44,664 bases of DNA from Clostridia bacterium. Lineage in GTDB: Bacteria > Bacillota > Clostridia > Oscillospirales > CAG-272. Positions 19,870 to 33,394 of this stretch are shown piece after piece. A program made the position numbers and the translations under genes. Each line of letters opens with the position of its first letter. Position 1 is the first letter of the stretch. The notes below the pieces were generated by a model. It had not been told where the DNA came from. It worked only from the letters and a program-made list of their open reading frames with translations, and did no database searches. The stretch lies in contig JAFTNU010000067.1 in the NCBI GenBank assembly GCA_017451735.1, positions 1 through 44,664 on the forward strand. Reading direction: 5' to 3'.

Positions 19870-19944
19870 AGGGATGTCGCCAAGCGGTAAGGCACCAGAC
19901 TTTGACTCTGGTATCCGTCGGTTCGAATCCGGCCATCCCTGCCA
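19870..19944 (+). tRNA. tRNA-Gln (TTG)
   Basis: 75 nt with encoded CCA. The acceptor AGGGATG pairs with CATCCCT, anticodon stem CCAGA/TCTGG, loop CTTTGAC with anticodon TTG, T-arm GGTTCGAATCC. In most Clostridia Gln-tRNA is made from Glu-tRNA by GatCAB, which makes the degenerate GatA elsewhere in the window relevant. Confidence 0.95.
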
Positions 19945-25083: not shown

Positions 25084-26520
25084 TTACGCCTTGTTGATCT
25101 CGTCAATCAGCATGGTACGCAGCACCTGCGGGTCGCAGTTGCCCTTCAGCTGCTTCATGCACTTGCCGAAGAGTGCCATCAGCGCCTTTTCCTTGCCACC
25201 CTTGAAGTCGGCAACCGCCTTGGGGTCGGCGGCAATTGCCTCTTTGATGACCTTGTCGATAAGCCCTGTGTCGTTGGAGAGGATCAAGCCGTTCTCCTCG
25301 GCGTATTTGGCAGGATCCAGGTCCTTTTCAAACATGGCGATCAGGATCTTCTTGGCGTTGCCGCGGCCGATGGTGCCGTCGGTGACCAGCTTGATCAGCT
25401 TGCCAAGGGAGGTGCCGTTGACGGTCAGCTGGTCGGCAGTCTGCTGATTCTTGTTGAGAAGGTTCATGCAATCGGAGATCAGCCAGTTGGCGGCCTCCTT
25501 TGCGTTGCCGCATTCGGCAACGGCGCCTTCGAAGCAATCGCACAGTGCGCGGCTACCCGTCAGAATGTCGGCGTCGTACTCGCCAAGACCGAACTCGCTC
25601 ATGTAGCGGGCCTTTTTGACCTCGGGGAACTCGGGCAGGGAGTTTTTGATACCGTCATACCACGTATCGTCGATGACAACGGGCATGATGTTGGGGTCGG
25701 GGAAGTAGCGGTAGTCGCCCGCCGTCTCCTTGTTACGCATGGCAAAGCTCTTACCCTTGACGTCGTCCCAGCGGCGGGTTTCCTGCACCAGCTCCTCGGT
25801 GCCGTTCTCAATGGCGTCGATGTGGCGGGCAGTCTCATACTCGATGGCACGGACGATGGCGGAAAGAGAGTTCATGTTCTTCATCTCGGTGCGCACACCA
25901 AGCTGATCGCTGCCCTCGGGGCGGACCGACAGGTTCACGTCACAGCGCATGGAGCCCTGCTCCATACGGCAGTCGGAGACCTTGGCAAAGCGCAGGAGCG
26001 AGCGAAGCCGCTCCAGATAGGCGACGACCTCCTCTGCCGAGGAAAGATCGGGCTGGCTGACGATCTCGATCAAGGGCACGCTGGTGCGGTTGAAGTCCAC
26101 CAGGGACGTATTGGTCCAATCGTCGTGAACCAGCTTGCCTGCGTCCTCCTCCATATGGATCTGCTTGATGCGGATCGACTTTTTGCCCTTGGAGGTTTCG
26201 ATATCCACCAAGCCGTTGACGGCAACGGGGGCAAACCACTGGGTAGTCTGATAGGAGCAGGGGAGATCGGGGTAGTAATAGCTCTTTTTATCAAAGGTGG
26301 TGGTGCGGTTGATGTGGCAGTTCAGCATCATGCCGGCAGTCATACCCAGATTGACCACGTTTTTGTTCACGATGGGGAGCATGCCGGGCATACCACAGCA
26401 TGCGGGGCAGACGTGATCGTTCTGCTCGGCGCCGAATTTGGCGGAGCAGGAGCAAAAGATCTTGGATTTGGTGGCAAGCTCTACGTGAACCTCCAGACCG
26501 ATAACGGTTTCAAATTTCAT
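25084..26520 (-). CDS. gatB: Asp-tRNA(Asn)/Glu-tRNA(Gln) amidotransferase subunit B
   Basis: 478-residue GatB, which phosphorylates the Asp or Glu on misacylated tRNA and swaps phosphate for ammonia. Family signatures are intact: GLEVHVEL at the N-terminus, FCSCSAKFG and VCPACCGMPG with the zinc/metal Cys, HMEEDAGK, DFNRTSVPLIEIVS and EQGSMRCDVN, plus the YqeY-like C-terminal tail. Length is normal. Its ATG is 1 nt after the gatA stop (TGATATG). It looks fully functional even though its partner GatA does not. Confidence 0.95.
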   Translation of the reverse strand: MKFETVIGLEVHVELATKSKIFCSCSAKFGAEQNDHVCPACCGMPGMLPIVNKNVVNLGMTAGMMLNCHINRTTTFDKKSYYYPDLPCSYQTTQWFAPVAVNGLVDIETSKGKKSIRIKQIHMEEDAGKLVHDDWTNTSLVDFNRTSVPLIEIVSQPDLSSAEEVVAYLERLRSLLRFAKVSDCRMEQGSMRCDVNLSVRPEGSDQLGVRTEMKNMNSLSAIVRAIEYETARHIDAIENGTEELVQETRRWDDVKGKSFAMRNKETAGDYRYFPDPNIMPVVIDDTWYDGIKNSLPEFPEVKKARYMSEFGLGEYDADILTGSRALCDCFEGAVAECGNAKEAANWLISDCMNLLNKNQQTADQLTVNGTSLGKLIKLVTDGTIGRGNAKKILIAMFEKDLDPAKYAEENGLILSNDTGLIDKVIKEAIAADPKAVADFKGGKEKALMALFGKCMKQLKGNCDPQVLRTMLIDEINKA

Positions 26521-26521
26521 A

Positions 26522-27676
26522 TCATTTGCCCTCCTTTACAAGAAGTGCGGCAAGATCAAGCAGGGCGCCCTCCGAAAAAGCGGGACCGACCAGCTGTACG
26601 CCACCGGCGACCACTGCGGGCAGCCCCGTGATAGATGCGGGAGCGGTGTAACGGTTTTCCTCAAAGGCGATGTAGGGATTCTCCTTCACGTCAGTCTCGG
26701 TGTACGCCGGCTTGGAGCAAGCGGGCATCAGCACGGCGTCGAAATCGGCAAAGAGCTTGCCGAAGGCCTCGGCAAGCACCCTGCGGATGCGGAGTGCCTT
26801 ATCGTACTTTGCCATATAATTTTTGGTGGAAAGCACATCCGAACCAAAGAGAATGGCGGTCTTGAGCAGAGCACCGAAGGATTCGGTGCGGCTGTTGGTA
26901 TAAAGCTCGTCGATGGTGGTGTAATTTTGCGTACGGTAGCCGAATTTGATGCCATCATAGCGGGAAACATTGTTGCAAAGCTCGGCACACATCAGAATGT
27001 TCCACGCGGTCTTGGCGGCGCTCAGCACATCCGCCTCGATCTCGGTGATTTCGATACCGTTGGCGACCATTTCGGCTTTTGCCGCTTCCAGCTCGGCGGT
27101 TATGTCGGCGTCGGCCTCCATTTTGATAACGGCCACCTTTTTTACGGGCTTTTCACACCCGTCTGCCGCCTTTTTGCAAAGGGCGTCGGCGTGCATGGTA
27201 CCGTCCTTGTCATCGTGTCCCGCCATGGCGGAAAGCACCTCACGGCAATCTGCAATATTGCGTGCCAGCACGCCCACGGTCTCACCGGAGCAGGCCACGG
27301 GCACGGTGCCGTAGCGGGAAACGGTGCCGTAGGTGGGCTTGACGAATACCAGCCCGTTCTGGGCGGCGATGCGGCGGGGAGCGCCGTTCACATCAAGAGA
27401 AATAACCCCCTTGACGGTATCGTTTTCCAAGGCTTTGGCAGAGGCGGCGGTCAGCTTGCCGTTCTCCGTAAGTGTGCCTGTATAGGCGGTCTCGCCCACA
27501 AGGTCAATGGCAAATTCGCCCACCTGTGCCTTACCTGCCATCTCATAGCCCGCGGCGGTCAGTCGCTCGACCACCTCGGCGTCAAACAGACTCATGTACC
27601 CCTCCAGCATGCGGGAGCCGGCGGTGGTGGGGAGTGCCTTGGTCAGCATCATATCATCCAATACAATTTTTTTCAT
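26522..27676 (-). CDS. gatA: GatA-like amidotransferase subunit A lacking catalytic triad
   Basis: 384 residues against about 485 for normal GatA. It aligns by eye from the segment holding the catalytic Lys onward: SRMLEGYMSLFDAEVVERL, VKPTYGTVSRYG, SRYDGIKFGYR and the C-terminal end match GatA. But the Lys of IKDN is Asp7, the GGSSGGSA loop with the cis-Ser reads GKLTAASA (73-80), and the nucleophile Ser of GGSIRQPAA is Ala99 in NGAPRRIAA. The N-terminal helical domain of about 75 residues is absent, and the 11-nt gap to gatC leaves no room for it. The ATG has AAGGAGG upstream. So it should lack glutaminase activity, though it may still scaffold GatB and GatC. Confidence 0.85.
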   Translation of the reverse strand: MKKIVLDDMMLTKALPTTAGSRMLEGYMSLFDAEVVERLTAAGYEMAGKAQVGEFAIDLVGETAYTGTLTENGKLTAASAKALENDTVKGVISLDVNGAPRRIAAQNGLVFVKPTYGTVSRYGTVPVACSGETVGVLARNIADCREVLSAMAGHDDKDGTMHADALCKKAADGCEKPVKKVAVIKMEADADITAELEAAKAEMVANGIEITEIEADVLSAAKTAWNILMCAELCNNVSRYDGIKFGYRTQNYTTIDELYTNSRTESFGALLKTAILFGSDVLSTKNYMAKYDKALRIRRVLAEAFGKLFADFDAVLMPACSKPAYTETDVKENPYIAFEENRYTAPASITGLPAVVAGGVQLVGPAFSEGALLDLAALLVKEGK

Positions 27677-27687
27677 GTGATACCTCC

Positions 27688-27969
27688 TTACTCCACCAAG
27701 CGGGGGACCTGCCAGTAGCCGTCCATGGTCTCGGGCGCGCCCTTTTGCAGCTCGTCGCGGGTAAAGAGTTTCTTTTCCACGTCCTCGCGCACCACGGTGA
27801 GAATGGGCATCACGTGGACCATGCGCTCGACGCGTTCGGTGTCGATGGCGTCAAGCACAGCCATTTCCTTATCCTGCCTTGCAAAAAATGCGAGAACGGC
27901 CTCCTTTTCTGCGTCGGTCAGACGCAGTTGGTTCAGCTTTTCCAGGGATTGCAGTGTGGTCTGATCCAT
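27688..27969 (-). CDS. gatC: Asp-tRNA(Asn)/Glu-tRNA(Gln) amidotransferase subunit C
   Basis: 93-residue GatC, a small subunit that wraps around GatA and stabilises the GatAB interface. The N-terminal helices (LEKLNQLRLTDAEKEAVLAF) and the C-terminal LFTRDELQKGAPETMDGYWQ then VPRLVE match the family. GGAGG precedes the ATG. It lies 13 nt after aspS and 11 nt before gatA. Confidence 0.9.
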   Translation of the reverse strand: MDQTTLQSLEKLNQLRLTDAEKEAVLAFFARQDKEMAVLDAIDTERVERMVHVMPILTVVREDVEKKLFTRDELQKGAPETMDGYWQVPRLVE

Positions 27970-27982
27970 ATGGGTAACCTCC

Positions 27983-29758
27983 TTAATCTCTCACTTTGAT
28001 GTGCACTTCGCGGAGCTGCTGCTCGGTGACCTCGCCGGGGGCACCCATCATCAGATCCTGTGCGTTGCCGTTGAGGGGGAAGGCGATGACGTCGCGGATG
28101 GTCTCCTCCTCGGCGATGAGCATGATCATGCGGTCCACGCCGGGGGCCATGCCCGCATGAGGGGGGGCACCGTAGGAGAAGGCAGTGTAAAGAGCGCCGA
28201 ACTTGGCCTTTACATCCTCCTCGCCGTAGCCTGCGATCTCAAATGCCTTGCGCATGATCTCGGGGTTATGGTTACGCACGGCGCCGGAGGAAAGCTCCAC
28301 GCCGTTGCAGACGATATCGTACTGATATGCAAAGATCTCAAGGGGATCCTTATTGAGCAGCGCATCCATGCCACCCTGGGGCATGGAGAAGGGGTTGTGG
28401 GTAAAGTCGATCTTGCCGGTCTCCTCGTTGCGCTCGTACATGGGGAAGTCCACGATGAAGCAGAACTCAAAGGAGTCGTTCTTCACAAGTCCCAGCTCGT
28501 TGCCGATCCAGGTGCGCATCTGACCTGCCAGGCTGTTGATCACGGCGGGCGCGTCGCTGATGAAGAACAGGGAATCGCCCTCCTTGATGCCGCAAAGTGC
28601 GGTGAGCTCAGCCTTTTGCTCCTCGGTCAGGAACTTGGCGATGGGACCCTTGTACTCGCCGCCCTCCAGGGTGATATAGCCGCAACCGAACTTCATGCCG
28701 ATGCTGCGGGAATAGGTGTCGATGGCCTTTTCAAATGCCTTTTTGCCGTCGCCCTCGCCGTCCTTTTTCACCAGATAGTTGGCGACGATGCCGCGGACCA
28801 GCTTGTTCTTGAAGGGAATCGTACGGCCGTTGAAGGTGAGAAATTCGTTCTTGGCGAAGAAGTCGGTCAGATCCTTGATCTCCAAGGGATTGCGCAGATC
28901 GGGCTTGTCGGAGCCGTATTTGAGCATGGCATCGGCAAAGGTGATGCGGCGGAAGGGGGGCTCGGAGACCTTTTTGTCCGTGAACTTCTTAAAGGTATTG
29001 TAAACGACCTTCTCGGCCACGGCAAAGACATCCTCTTGGGTGGCGAATGCCATTTCAAAATCCAGCTGATAGAACTCTCCGGGGGAGCGATCCTGACGGG
29101 CATCCTCGTCGCGGAAACAGGGGGCAATCTGGAAGTAGCGGTCAAAGCCGGAGGCCATCAGCAGCTGCTTGAACTGCTGGGGCGCCTGGGGCAGCGCATA
29201 GAACTTGCCCTTGTGCTTGCGGCTGGGCACCAGATAGTCGCGGGCGCCCTCGGGAGAGGAGGCGGTGAGAATGGGGGTCTGAATCTCCAAAAAGCCCATC
29301 TCTTCCATTTGGGAGCGCAGGTAAGAGAGTACCTTGGAGCGGAGCACGATGTTATCGTGGATCTTTTTGTTGCGCAGGTCGAGGTAGCGGTATTTCAGAC
29401 GCACCTCCTCACGGGTTTGGGTAGAGGCATCGATCTCAAAGGGCAGACCCAGCTGGCAGGGACCCAGTACCTCGATCTTGGCGGCGCGGACCTCCACAAG
29501 ACCGGTCTCGATCTTGGGGTTGACGGTCTCGGGATCACGCTCGGTGACGGTGCCTTCCACCAAAACCACGGTCTCCTTGGAGATGCCCGCCAGCATCTTA
29601 TCATCGGAAAAAACGATCTGAGTCACGCCGTAGTGGTCGCGCAGATCCACAAAAAGCACGCCGCCGTGGTCGCGGATCGTGTCTACCCAACCGGTCAGGG
29701 TGACGGTCTGTCCGATGTGGGTTTTGTTCAGCTCATTACAGGTATGTGTTCTAAGCAT
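27983..29758 (-). CDS. aspS: Aspartyl-tRNA synthetase, probably non-discriminating
   Basis: 591-residue bacterial-type class IIb AspRS with OB-fold anticodon domain (LTGWVDTIRDHGGVLFVDLR), catalytic core motif 2 (FRDEDARQDRSPGEFYQLDF), the GAD insertion and motif 3 (GVDRMIMLIA). Cotranscription with gatCAB under an Asn T-box implies that it charges both tRNA-Asp and tRNA-Asn with Asp. The start at 29758 (MLRTHTCNEL) has GGAGG 8 nt upstream; a TTG 15 nt earlier overlaps that site. First gene of the operon. Confidence 0.95.
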   Translation of the reverse strand: MLRTHTCNELNKTHIGQTVTLTGWVDTIRDHGGVLFVDLRDHYGVTQIVFSDDKMLAGISKETVVLVEGTVTERDPETVNPKIETGLVEVRAAKIEVLGPCQLGLPFEIDASTQTREEVRLKYRYLDLRNKKIHDNIVLRSKVLSYLRSQMEEMGFLEIQTPILTASSPEGARDYLVPSRKHKGKFYALPQAPQQFKQLLMASGFDRYFQIAPCFRDEDARQDRSPGEFYQLDFEMAFATQEDVFAVAEKVVYNTFKKFTDKKVSEPPFRRITFADAMLKYGSDKPDLRNPLEIKDLTDFFAKNEFLTFNGRTIPFKNKLVRGIVANYLVKKDGEGDGKKAFEKAIDTYSRSIGMKFGCGYITLEGGEYKGPIAKFLTEEQKAELTALCGIKEGDSLFFISDAPAVINSLAGQMRTWIGNELGLVKNDSFEFCFIVDFPMYERNEETGKIDFTHNPFSMPQGGMDALLNKDPLEIFAYQYDIVCNGVELSSGAVRNHNPEIMRKAFEIAGYGEEDVKAKFGALYTAFSYGAPPHAGMAPGVDRMIMLIAEEETIRDVIAFPLNGNAQDLMMGAPGEVTEQQLREVHIKVRD

Positions 29759-29830
29759 GAGTGATTCCTCCAAAATATTGATACTTTATTATTATTTTCA
29801 AATGTGAAGCAGGATAACCGCGGGAGTGAT

Positions 29831-30080
29831 AAAACAAAAAAGCGCCTTTCTCCCATACACATGGGACGAAAGACGACTTCCGCGATACCACCCAAATTGA
29901 TCCTTTCGGATCCTCTTCATTGCATCTTGACGCGATGAACGTGCGGTTCTAATCGCCGCCGCCCACGGGGGCACGGCTTTCTTCCGCAGGCTCCGGAGCG
30001 TTTTTCTTGCAAGGCTCATTGCCGTGTTTCCACCGTCGACGGCTCTCTTTGAACGGGACACCTGCAATACTCTCTCCATC
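29831..30080 (-). ncRNA. T-box riboswitch, Asn (AAC) specifier
   Basis: Leader of aspS-gatCAB. On the minus strand the T-box sequence TGGGTGGTATCGCGG is at 29894-29880 and is followed by a terminator hairpin (ATGGGA/TCCCAT core, T-run 29841-29831). Stem I begins GGAG/CTCC at 30077, with AGAGTA on the 5' side of the internal loop and GAA-AAC-G on the 3' side; AAC at 30002-30000 occupies the specifier position, exactly as UGC does in the cys leader. The distal AGAGAGCC and GGTGGAAA elements are also present. Confidence 0.9.
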
Positions 30081-30102
30081 ACAGCCTATTGAATTTGATG
30101 TA

Positions 30103-30409: not shown

Positions 30410-30622
30410 ATGATGCCTTTAAACTTTGCTACCGTTGGAGAAGAGAATATCATCAAGCGGGTGGGCGGTACGCCCGATACCAAAAAGCACCTGGAGGATA
30501 TGGGCTTTGTGGTGGGCGGCGCGGTCACGGTCATCAGTACCATCGGGGGGAACGTCATTGTGAACGTCAAGGAGACCCGCGTGGCCATCAGCCGTGAAAT
30601 GGCACAGAAGATTATGGTGTAA
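30410..30622 (+). CDS. feoA: FeoA-family protein (first copy)
   Basis: 70-residue SH3-like FeoA domain (IIKRVGGTPDTKKHLEDMGF then VVGGAVTVIST and VAISREMAQKIMV). FeoA proteins bind FeoB and modulate Fe2+ uptake. GAGGAAC precedes the tandem ATG codons. First of two feoA genes in the operon. Confidence 0.9.
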   Translation: MMPLNFATVGEENIIKRVGGTPDTKKHLEDMGFVVGGAVTVISTIGGNVIVNVKETRVAISREMAQKIMV

Positions 30623-30660
30623 GCCTTTATCTTATAGATTCAATTGAAGGAGGAGCAGGT

Positions 30661-30882
30661 ATGAACACGTTGCGGCAGATCCCCGTCGGCGGTAGTGCCA
30701 AGGTCGTTAAACTGCACGGCGAGGGTGCAGTCAAAAGACGCATCATGGATATGGGTATTACCAAGGGCGTTGAAGTCAAAGTACGCAAAGTGGCACCTCT
30801 GGGCGATCCCATCGAAGTGACCGTGCGCGGTTACGAGCTGTCGATCCGTCTGGCAGACGCCGAGAACATCGAGGTGGAATAA
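30661..30882 (+). CDS. feoA: FeoA-family protein (second copy)
   Basis: 73-residue FeoA SH3-like domain (GGSAKVVKLHGEGAVKRRIM then DMGITKGVEVKV and YELSIRLADAENIEVE). It is clearly divergent from the first copy. GGAGGAG precedes the ATG. Two FeoA proteins ahead of FeoB is a common clostridial arrangement. Confidence 0.92.
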   Translation: MNTLRQIPVGGSAKVVKLHGEGAVKRRIMDMGITKGVEVKVRKVAPLGDPIEVTVRGYELSIRLADAENIEVE

Positions 30883-30955
30883 GCCACCGAAAGGGGCAGA
30901 TTCCCCTTGTTTATTGCATCAAATGTTAGTCTATACTAATAAAGGAGAAGAAAAC

Positions 30956-33394
30956 ATGAACATACGCATCGCTCTTGCGGGCAACCCCAACTGCGGTAAG
31001 ACCACCCTGTTCAATGCACTGACGGGCTCTAACCAGTTCGTCGGCAACTGGCCCGGTGTTACCGTAGAGAAAAAAGAGGGTAAGCTGAAAAAGCACGAGG
31101 GGGTCATCGTCACCGACCTGCCCGGCATCTACTCTTTGTCCCCCTACACGCTGGAGGAGGTCGTCGCCAGAAAGTATCTGATTGAGGAGCGCCCCGATGC
31201 CATCCTCAACATCATCGACGGTACCAACCTGGAGCGCAACCTGTACCTGACCACTCAGCTCACCGAGCTGGGCATTCCCGTGGTCATTGCCATCAATATG
31301 ATGGACGTCGTTCGCAAGAACGGCGACAAGATCGACATCAAGCGCTTGTCCGAGGCCCTGGGCTGTAAGATCGTTGAGATCTCGGCGTTGAAGGGTGACG
31401 GCGTCATGGAGGCTGCAGAGGCCGCCATCGAGGCCGCGAAAAACGGTAAGACCGTGCCTCAGCACAACTTCTCGGGCGCGGTAGAGCACGCCATTGCCCA
31501 CATTGAGGAGGCCGCCGTGCACGGGCTCCCCGAGGAGCAGCAGCGCTGGTACGCCATCAAGATCTTTGAGCGCGACGACAAGGTGCTGGAGCAGCTGAGC
31601 ATTGACGCCGAGAAGATGGCACACATCGAGGAGGACATTGCCGCCGCCGAGAAGGAGCTGGATGACGATGCCGAATCGATTATCACCAACGAGCGTTACA
31701 TTTACATCGGTCAGATCATCAAGGGCGCCTACAAGAAGCGGGATGCCGGTAAGATGACCGTCTCCGATAAGATCGACCGTGTGGTCACCAACCGCTGGGC
31801 GGCGCTCCCCATCTTTGCCGCCATTATGTTCCTGGTTTACTTTATTTCCGTGTATACGGTCGGCACCTGGGTCACCGACTGGACCAATGACGGTCTCTTT
31901 GGCGACGGCTGGCGCTTCCTTGGCATCGGCACCTCCAAGTATGAGGATGCCGTTGACGCGTATGCCGCCGAAAATGTCTGGACCACCATGCCTGTGCTGG
32001 TCACTCCCGGCATCGAGGCTGCCGTTGATGCAGAGGTTCCCGGTGCCGAGGAGATCCTCGGTGCCATCGAGGAAGAGGACTTCGGTGCCTTTGAGGAGGC
32101 ATGGGGCTCTTACGGTCCCGCCATCGTCGAGCATTACGGCGAGGTTGCGGGCGCGGCGCTGGACGAGGTGGTCAACGGCTACTTTGAGGGTGCCCCCGAT
32201 CCTGCCGAATACGGCGCGTGGATCCCCGGCATTCCCGTTCTCTTTGAGAAGCTGCTGGACGCCATGAACGCCGCCGATTGGGTCAAGAGCCTGGTTCTTG
32301 ACGGCATCGTGGGCGGTGTGGGCGCAGTGCTCGGCTTTGTGCCTCAGATTCTGGTGCTCTTCATCCTGCTGGCATTCCTGGAGTCCTGCGGCTACATGGC
32401 GCGTATCGCCTTTGTGATGGACCGTATCTTCCGCAAGTTCGGCCTTTCGGGCAAGTCCTTTATCCCCATGCTGATCGGCACGGGCTGTGGTGTTCCCGGT
32501 ATTATGGCAAGCCGTACCATCGAGAACGAGCGTGACCGTCGCATGACCATCATGACCACCACCTTCATCCCCTGCGGCGCTAAGATGCCCATCATCGCGC
32601 TGATCGCCGGTGCGTTGTTCAACAACGGCTGGTGGGTGGCTCCGGTAGCCTACTTCATCGGTGTTGCCGCCATTATCATCTCGGGCGTCATGCTGAAAAA
32701 GACCAAGATGTTCGCAGGCGATCCCGCTCCCTTCGTTATGGAGCTTCCCGCCTACCATCTGCCCACCGTTTCCAACATTCTCCGCTCCATGTGGGAGCGC
32801 GGCTGGTCCTTCATCAAGAAGGCGGGCACCATTATTCTTGCCTCCACCATCGTGATCTGGTTCTTCTCCAGCATCGGTACCAACGAGGCAGGTGCCCTGG
32901 TCTTCTGCAGTGACGAGCTGGTCAAGAGCTGGCTGGACTACGCCGGCAGTGCGATCTCCTGGATCTTTGCACCGCTCGGCTTCAATGATTCCACTGCCGC
33001 CGTGGCGACGGTGATGGGTCTGGTTGCAAAGGAGGAGGTCGTTGCCGTGTTCGGCGTGACCGACTTTATGGGCATGGGCAGACTTTCCGCCTTCTCGTTC
33101 CTGATCTTCAACCTGCTGTGCGCGCCCTGCTTTGCGGCCATCGGTGCCATCAAGCGTGAGATGAACAGCGCCAAGTGGACCTGGTTCGCCATCGGCTACC
33201 AGTGCGGCTTTGCCTATGTGATCTCTCTGATCGTTTACAACCTGGGCTGCTTGTTCAGCGGCAATGTATCGGGCGCGCTGGGCGTGATCTGCGTGATCCT
33301 CGCCTTTGCGGCTGTGGGTGCACTCGGCTATATGCTGTTCCGCCCCTACAAGGAGGCAACAAAGCTGGAGCTGGACGTAAAGGTCGCCAAGTAA
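30956..33394 (+). CDS. feoB: Fe2+ transporter FeoB
   Basis: 812-residue FeoB. The N-terminal G domain has G1 GNPNCGKTT (9-17), the G3 DLPG motif near 55 and the G4 NMMD near 118, followed by the helical GDI-like spacer. The membrane part has the two gate halves, including SCGYMARIAFVMD, IGTGCGVPG and TFIPCGAKMPI. After the first membrane helix there is an acidic insertion of about 120 residues (EVPGAEEILGAIEEEDFGAF) that is longer than in E. coli-type FeoB. Start at 30956 after AAAGGAG. Drives GTP-linked ferrous iron uptake. Confidence 0.96.
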   Translation: MNIRIALAGNPNCGKTTLFNALTGSNQFVGNWPGVTVEKKEGKLKKHEGVIVTDLPGIYSLSPYTLEEVVARKYLIEERPDAILNIIDGTNLERNLYLTTQLTELGIPVVIAINMMDVVRKNGDKIDIKRLSEALGCKIVEISALKGDGVMEAAEAAIEAAKNGKTVPQHNFSGAVEHAIAHIEEAAVHGLPEEQQRWYAIKIFERDDKVLEQLSIDAEKMAHIEEDIAAAEKELDDDAESIITNERYIYIGQIIKGAYKKRDAGKMTVSDKIDRVVTNRWAALPIFAAIMFLVYFISVYTVGTWVTDWTNDGLFGDGWRFLGIGTSKYEDAVDAYAAENVWTTMPVLVTPGIEAAVDAEVPGAEEILGAIEEEDFGAFEEAWGSYGPAIVEHYGEVAGAALDEVVNGYFEGAPDPAEYGAWIPGIPVLFEKLLDAMNAADWVKSLVLDGIVGGVGAVLGFVPQILVLFILLAFLESCGYMARIAFVMDRIFRKFGLSGKSFIPMLIGTGCGVPGIMASRTIENERDRRMTIMTTTFIPCGAKMPIIALIAGALFNNGWWVAPVAYFIGVAAIIISGVMLKKTKMFAGDPAPFVMELPAYHLPTVSNILRSMWERGWSFIKKAGTIILASTIVIWFFSSIGTNEAGALVFCSDELVKSWLDYAGSAISWIFAPLGFNDSTAAVATVMGLVAKEEVVAVFGVTDFMGMGRLSAFSFLIFNLLCAPCFAAIGAIKREMNSAKWTWFAIGYQCGFAYVISLIVYNLGCLFSGNVSGALGVICVILAFAAVGALGYMLFRPYKEATKLELDVKVAK

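Follow-up and report, generated by a model that had tools for sequence, protein, structure and literature searches.

Glutamine amidotransferases are the textbook case of a glutaminase coupled to an ammonia tunnel. The closest described system to the operon reported here is the GatCAB amidotransferase. The operon differs from it in its GatA, called GatA* here, which is without the Lys-cisSer-Ser triad, without the presumed glutamine-binding residues, and without about 72 N-terminal residues. It shares with GatCAB the subunits, the gene order, the conserved GatB columns, the signature of a non-discriminating AspRS (ND-AspRS), and an asparagine T-box of the kind cited for C. acetobutylicum (2012 work, via PMC4206432). 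By sequence, this is probably a variant of the GatCAB kind in which the glutaminase feature is absent and which is still a tRNA amidotransferase.

There are other systems with which the operon can be compared. Archaeal GatDE is alike in that an asparaginase-family protein may be tied to a GatB-type transamidase. Unlike in GatDE, there is no GatD by the curated cut-off, GatA* and GatC are retained, and the link is a genomic one. Mammalian CPS1 belongs to a glutamine-dependent family of amidating enzymes and uses free ammonia. NAD synthetases are split into glutamine-using and ammonia-using enzymes, the single-domain form being ammonia-dependent, according to PMC3376133. The likeness to CPS1 and to the ammonia-dependent NAD synthetase would lie in the use of free ammonia, but here the amidase subunit appears to be kept as a pseudoenzyme and the target is an aminoacyl-tRNA. 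AspRS joined to GatC is represented by the NCBIfam family PRK12820. Such a fusion is also found in GatA* operons, but that of L049 reaches a score of 456.9, where the cut-off is 1379.

The window, which is the whole stretch of 44,664 nucleotides that was analysed, contains a minus-strand operon in the order T-box, aspS2, gatC2, gatA*, and gatB2 (Table 1). The gatA* reading frame is intact and is flanked by gatC2 and gatB2. GatA* matches the Pfam Amidase family (PF01425) with 172.8 bits, above the gathering score of 27, and thus belongs with the amidase signature proteins. Against NCBIfam gatA it obtains 238.5 bits, under the cut-off of 481.1, so the GatA equivalog score is not reached. GatB2 matches NF004012 with 598.8 bits, above the cut-off of 338. 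Upstream of the operon, plus-strand reading frames at 30410-33394 appear by eye to encode FeoA-type proteins and a FeoB-type iron transporter.

Table 1. Operon features and their positions in the window.
Feature	Position	Strand	Description
gatB2	25084..26520	minus	478 aa; kinase/transamidase subunit
gatA*	26522..27676	minus	384 aa; short GatA, no Lys-cisSer-Ser triad; predicted pseudoamidase
gatC2	27688..27969	minus	93 aa; NCBIfam gatC 58 bits, cut-off 47.1
aspS2	27983..29773	minus	596 aa; AspRS with RDHGG, non-discriminating signature
T-box leader upstream of aspS2	29859..30091	minus	104.4 bits, gathering 93; specifier reads AAC (Asn)

The structure 2df4 is presumably GatA of S. aureus, and its residues Y309, R358, and D425 are taken to be glutamine-binding. 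In an HMMER alignment of GatA* with this protein, K79 corresponds to D7, S154 to L75, and S178 to A99. These are the three substitutions that the first-pass annotation had read by eye, and they were reproduced. Furthermore, Y309 corresponds to W225, R358 to A274, and D425 to N341. The same comparison places the N-terminal shortening and indicates a cis-Ser loop that is about 7 residues shorter.

Substitutions of this kind occur throughout the relatives. Thirty-nine of 41 GatA* loci, each from a different genome, were aligned; L070 and L078 were excluded, their reading frames being broken by a stop. The Lys79 column contains D (37) and E (2). The cis-Ser154 column, where the alignment is loose in the shortened loop, contains L (33), a gap (3), I (2), and Y (1), and the column after it has Ser in six of the 39 rows. 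The Ser178 column contains A (22), S (8), T (7), and Y (2). The full triad is present in 0/39 rows. Ordinary GatA, represented by 74 rows, has K in 72, S in 73, and S in 74 at the triad columns; L105 (an X) and L050 (an odd protein) are the exceptions. The triad loss in GatA* is not due to chance or a local error, because it is the same in 39/39 aligned rows. Trp stands at Tyr309 in 38 of the 39 rows, and the presumed glutamine-binding Arg and Asp are absent from every one. Judged by these alignments, GatA* has lost its glutaminase site. An amide could still be hydrolysed through new catalytic residues, for which the family-specific conserved polar residues D58, N97, R102, E132, N235, E340, and the D/E at Lys79 are candidates. 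However, there is no fixed nucleophile (Ser178 is A/S/T/Y), and with the presumed glutamine-binding pair also gone a new site is quite improbable.

Relatives of GatA* that are 49-100% identical were found in 10 of 146 genomes of the same family, the window genome included. In the order, matches at E <= 1e-80 occur in 16 of 394 genomes and in 13 of 168 genera; three of the 16 were already in the analysed set, and the other 13 may overlap genomes reached by name. At least 593 stretches matched in the scan of named genomes; the analysis used the 80 best of them, and the family may include more distant members beyond these. These 80 consist of 32 GatA* and 48 ordinary GatA. L045 and L056 are one genome with the same coordinates and were counted once. 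The analysed set comprises 41 distinct GatA* genomes, namely the window genome, 9 others, and 31 named ones. Of the 32 GatA* loci among the 80 best matches (from at least 593), 22 have titles that name a hoofed animal's gut or rumen sample, or the animal.

The dN/dS ratio of GatA* is 0.06-0.19 in the 14 closest pairs and that of GatB is 0.02-0.08 in the 13 of the same pairs where it was calculable, the pairs overlapping and many dS values being above 1. GatA* nevertheless clearly evolves faster than GatB, and under constraint. An internal stop is absent from 39 of 41 gatA* loci, one of which is cut by a contig end. Both results bear out the earlier claim that gatA* is not a decaying pseudogene. 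In L070 and L078, where a stop interrupts gatA*, the adjacent gatB is intact, and these two may be pseudogenes or assembly errors. In a quick tree, all 41 GatB partners of GatA* fall on one side of a branch with an SH-aLRT support of 100. The first-pass annotation had also suggested a conserved family of an undescribed type. Its conservation holds across the 41 genomes. As for novelty, titles and abstract openings in the searchable literature gave no description of a triad-less GatA or of such an operon.

The GatB subunits that accompany GatA* appear to be well preserved. Among columns that are invariant in ordinary GatB (at least 97% of 70 rows, L050 excluded), 64 of 72 are retained in at least 95% of the 41 GatA*-partner rows, including E10, H12, K79, and E125. 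The remaining eight are changed, and R78K, G147S, Q233H, and D277N are each found in 40 or 41 of the 41 rows. Of the 41 loci, 37 have the order aspS(-)gatC-gatA*-gatB. A contig end truncates three of the others (L048, L070, and L075), and the fourth (L055) is without an adjacent aspS. AspRS and GatC matches lie in a single reading frame in 21 of 41 GatA* loci, and the same fusion is suggested in further relatives, where AspRS reading frames are about 700 aa long and no separate gatC was matched. The fusion is not special to GatA*, because L110 has it with an ordinary GatA.

A separate observation concerns the odd protein mentioned above, which is the second GatA of G087 (L050:1968-3308). Its Lys79 and cis-Ser loop are gone while Ser178 is kept, and the GatB of this locus keeps 71 of the 72 invariant columns. 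It is possibly an independent, partial loss.

His or Leu in the RDxG motif of the anticodon-binding domain is taken here to be the discrimination switch of AspRS. The operon AspRS has His at this position (36) in 35/35 rows that are not gapped there; two further rows have a gap, and one genome is represented twice. The second AspRS has Leu in 21/21 rows, which come from 21 of the 41 genomes. Among ten PDB matches, five alignments were compared at this position. His is present in 4wj3 (named Asp/Asn ligase), Leu in 1eqr, 1c0a, and 6hhv (tRNA(Asp) ligase), and Lys in 6wom; the species of these chains are likewise assumed. By this motif, the operon AspRS carries the non-discriminating signature and the second AspRS the discriminating one. 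In 10 of 40 GatA* genomes scanned (L048 lies outside the scan), a T-box at the gathering score stands before aspS. The specifier is AAC (Asn) in 10/10. All ten belong to one GatB subclade of 14 rows, and the other of the two subclades is without them. A scan of the ordinary locus L051 gave no T-box match.

The role of the operon can be inferred in part from the other routes to Asn-tRNA and Gln-tRNA that the genomes contain. A PF01425 search found GatA* to be the only GatA in 27 of 41 genomes. A full canonical GatA accompanies it in 13, among them the window genome, which holds a full second gatCAB; G087 has the odd second GatA instead. GatA* might be a mere scaffold while an active GatA is encoded elsewhere, which the first-pass annotation had offered as one option. 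The second gatCAB would then lend its canonical GatA, either as an ammonia source or as a substitute within the complex. The window genome and the 12 others would allow this. However, with no other GatA over the cut-off in 27 of 41 genomes, 21 of which are also without AsnRS, this option cannot hold in general, barring genome gaps, and is extremely improbable.

AsnRS over the cut-off is present in 8 of 41 genomes. Six of these are among the 27 with GatA* only, and in the other 21 of the 27 no AsnRS over the cut-off was found. GlnRS over the cut-off is present in 36 of 41 genomes, these being 26/27 with GatA* only, 9/13 with canonical GatA (Fisher 0.03), and G087. Completeness is 73-97% for the 8 of the 21 GatA*-only, AsnRS-negative genomes with a figure, and since the assemblies are fragmentary and lack some sequence, some gene absences may be gaps. 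Most simply, GatCA*B would make Asn-tRNA(Asn) in the 21 genomes, and Gln-tRNA would be left to GlnRS. Since AsnRS is present in eight genomes, six of them GatA*-only, the operon also persists where strict need for it is absent. Asparagine synthetases were considered as an alternative source of asparagine. AsnA occurs in 1 of 41 genomes and PF00733 matches above 150 bits occur in 21, including the window genome. They do not replace AsnRS and do not decide the matter. An AsnRS-like match in G169 was set aside. It is under the cut-off, its NCBIfam type is aspartate--tRNA(Asn) ligase, and G169 was counted as lacking AsnRS. This gene (L147:4277-5560) lies by eye in a surface-polysaccharide-like cluster.

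The canonical gatCAB of the window genome (L051:2-17241) clusters with genes that look by eye like glutamate synthase, type III glutamine synthetase, an AmtB-PII fusion, pyrG, purF, and carA. The cluster prompted a nitrogen-regulation model, in which canonical gatCAB would be induced at nitrogen shortage. The model was dropped because 24 further ordinary gatA loci are mostly without such neighbours. Among these 24, glnN and gltS are nearby only in L158 and pyrG only in L141, and weak purF-like matches (26-27% identity) occur at L150 and L158.

Most likely, with a probability of roughly 0.68, the operon encodes an active Asp-tRNA(Asn) amidotransferase that is dedicated to tRNA-Asn, has lost the glutaminase activity of GatA, and is fed by free ammonia. 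The non-discriminating AspS2 would load Asp onto tRNA-Asn. GatB2 with ATP would then activate the Asp side chain and amidate it. GatA* would no longer hydrolyse Gln or Asn. It could hold GatB and GatC together and may be where ammonia enters, the conserved D/E (D7) and Trp (W225) in the old pocket being the proposed NH4+ entry site. The nitrogen would be free ammonia, possibly supplemented by an asparaginase-like protein. Where a T-box is present, uncharged tRNA-Asn would turn the operon on. The enzymatic activity, ammonia substrate, entry site, and regulation are predicted from sequence comparisons. Ammonia is plentiful in the gut and rumen. GatB-type enzymes can use ammonium: in yeast GatFAB the trimming of the GatF N-terminal domain lowers glutamine-dependent transamidation and, in one mutant, increases NH4Cl-dependent transamidation, as PMC4027206 reports. 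Among the nitrogen sources free ammonia would be the first choice and fits most of the data. To this extent the free-ammonia option of the first-pass annotation stands; it leaves the linkage to an asparaginase-like gene unexplained, which counts against it. Further points against the ammonia-fed reading are the eight genomes that also have AsnRS, the two broken gatA* copies, the confinement of the T-box to one GatB subclade, and the genome gaps that may lie behind some absences. If the reading is correct, a whole clade has lost the glutaminase of a step that is essential to translation and has retained a dead subunit. The role of GatA in assembly apart from catalysis could then be tested, as well as whether free ammonia sustains Asn-tRNA synthesis and how the relative of asparaginases is tied to the absence of AsnRS.

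The asparaginase-like protein could itself be the source of nitrogen. PF00710 matches are present in 32 of 41 genomes. Of these, 28 are of a divergent type (DAL) and the other four are AnsA-type. DAL forms one clade against five AnsA-type rows with a support of 100/100 (one AnsA-type match of G158 is outside the tree). A dedicated protein of this kind may have taken over the amidase role and supply nitrogen, as GatD does in GatDE. If so, imported asparagine would charge tRNA-Asn without AsnRS. Of 41 gatA* loci, 7 have DAL at a distance of up to 7 kb from gatA*, compared with 0 of 74 ordinary gatA loci, contig ends cutting both sets. In one of three DAL subclades, 7 of 9 members are beside the operon. 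The DAL start codon overlaps the gatB stop in L057, downstream of the T-box; induction by uncharged tRNA-Asn would make little sense for an asparaginase that degrades asparagine. In L049 and L070 about 50 bases separate gatB from the DAL that follows it, in L044 and L045 DAL lies ahead of the T-box, and in L042 and L059 the distance is greater.

The distribution of DAL also points in this direction. It is present in 19 of 21 GatA*-only, AsnRS-negative genomes, the two without it being G159 (0.9 Mb) and G165, versus 0 of 6 AsnRS-positive ones (Fisher 9.5e-5). Over the 41 genomes it is present in 27 of 33 without AsnRS and in 1 of 8 with AsnRS (Fisher 5.2e-4). However, both tests are post hoc, having been chosen after the neighbourhood was seen, they treat related genomes as independent, and the DAL frequencies cover GatA* genomes only. 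DAL is also present in 8 of 12 genomes with canonical GatA and no AsnRS, and 34 of 41 loci, the window locus included, show no DAL next to the operon. The motif GGTI is present in 28/28 DAL rows, but HGTDT is exact in 21 of them, with Ser replacing its Thr in four. The column that is Lys in 5/5 AnsA-type rows, presumably the catalytic Lys of asparaginases, has Lys in 1/28 DAL rows. Four DALs score 73-86 bits against GatD (cut-off 310) and 88-101 bits against type I asparaginase (cut-off 260.5). A takeover of the amidase role by DAL is thus doubtful. For the borrowed amidase that the first-pass annotation had mentioned, there is now a candidate, and the usual catalytic Lys is missing from nearly all of its members.

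The tRNA that the predicted ammonia-fed enzyme would act on was seen in one locus. According to PMC4206432, the acceptor pair recognised by bacterial GatCAB is U1-A72. The tRNA-Asn at L069:5-80 has G1-C72. It belongs to G160, an AsnRS-negative genome with GatA* only, and its contig also carries a fused aspS-gatC, gatA*, and gatB operon. This is the only tRNA-Asn in the scanned loci of GatA* genomes, and none was found in those from the window genome. The G1-C72 pair counts against the ammonia-fed reading, and it comes from a single gene. If it is general, either the tRNA recognition is changed or the complex has another role. For example, the complex might have no amidating function and be a relic of AspRS2 with a role in regulation or binding. 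The G1-C72 pair is in keeping with such a relic, as is the operon beside AsnRS in six GatA*-only genomes, but the GatB active-site columns are conserved and 21 genomes have no other detected route to Asn-tRNA(Asn), and a relic is highly improbable. A third class of tRNA-dependent amidotransferase can be proposed tentatively. It would combine a GatB-type subunit, a pseudo-GatA, and an independently recruited asparaginase-type amidase through which free asparagine would charge tRNA-Asn in the absence of AsnRS, perhaps with a changed tRNA rule of G1-C72. The window itself carries a tRNA-Gln (TTG anticodon) at 19870-19944 with an A1-U72 acceptor, in a genome that has GlnRS and canonical gatCAB.
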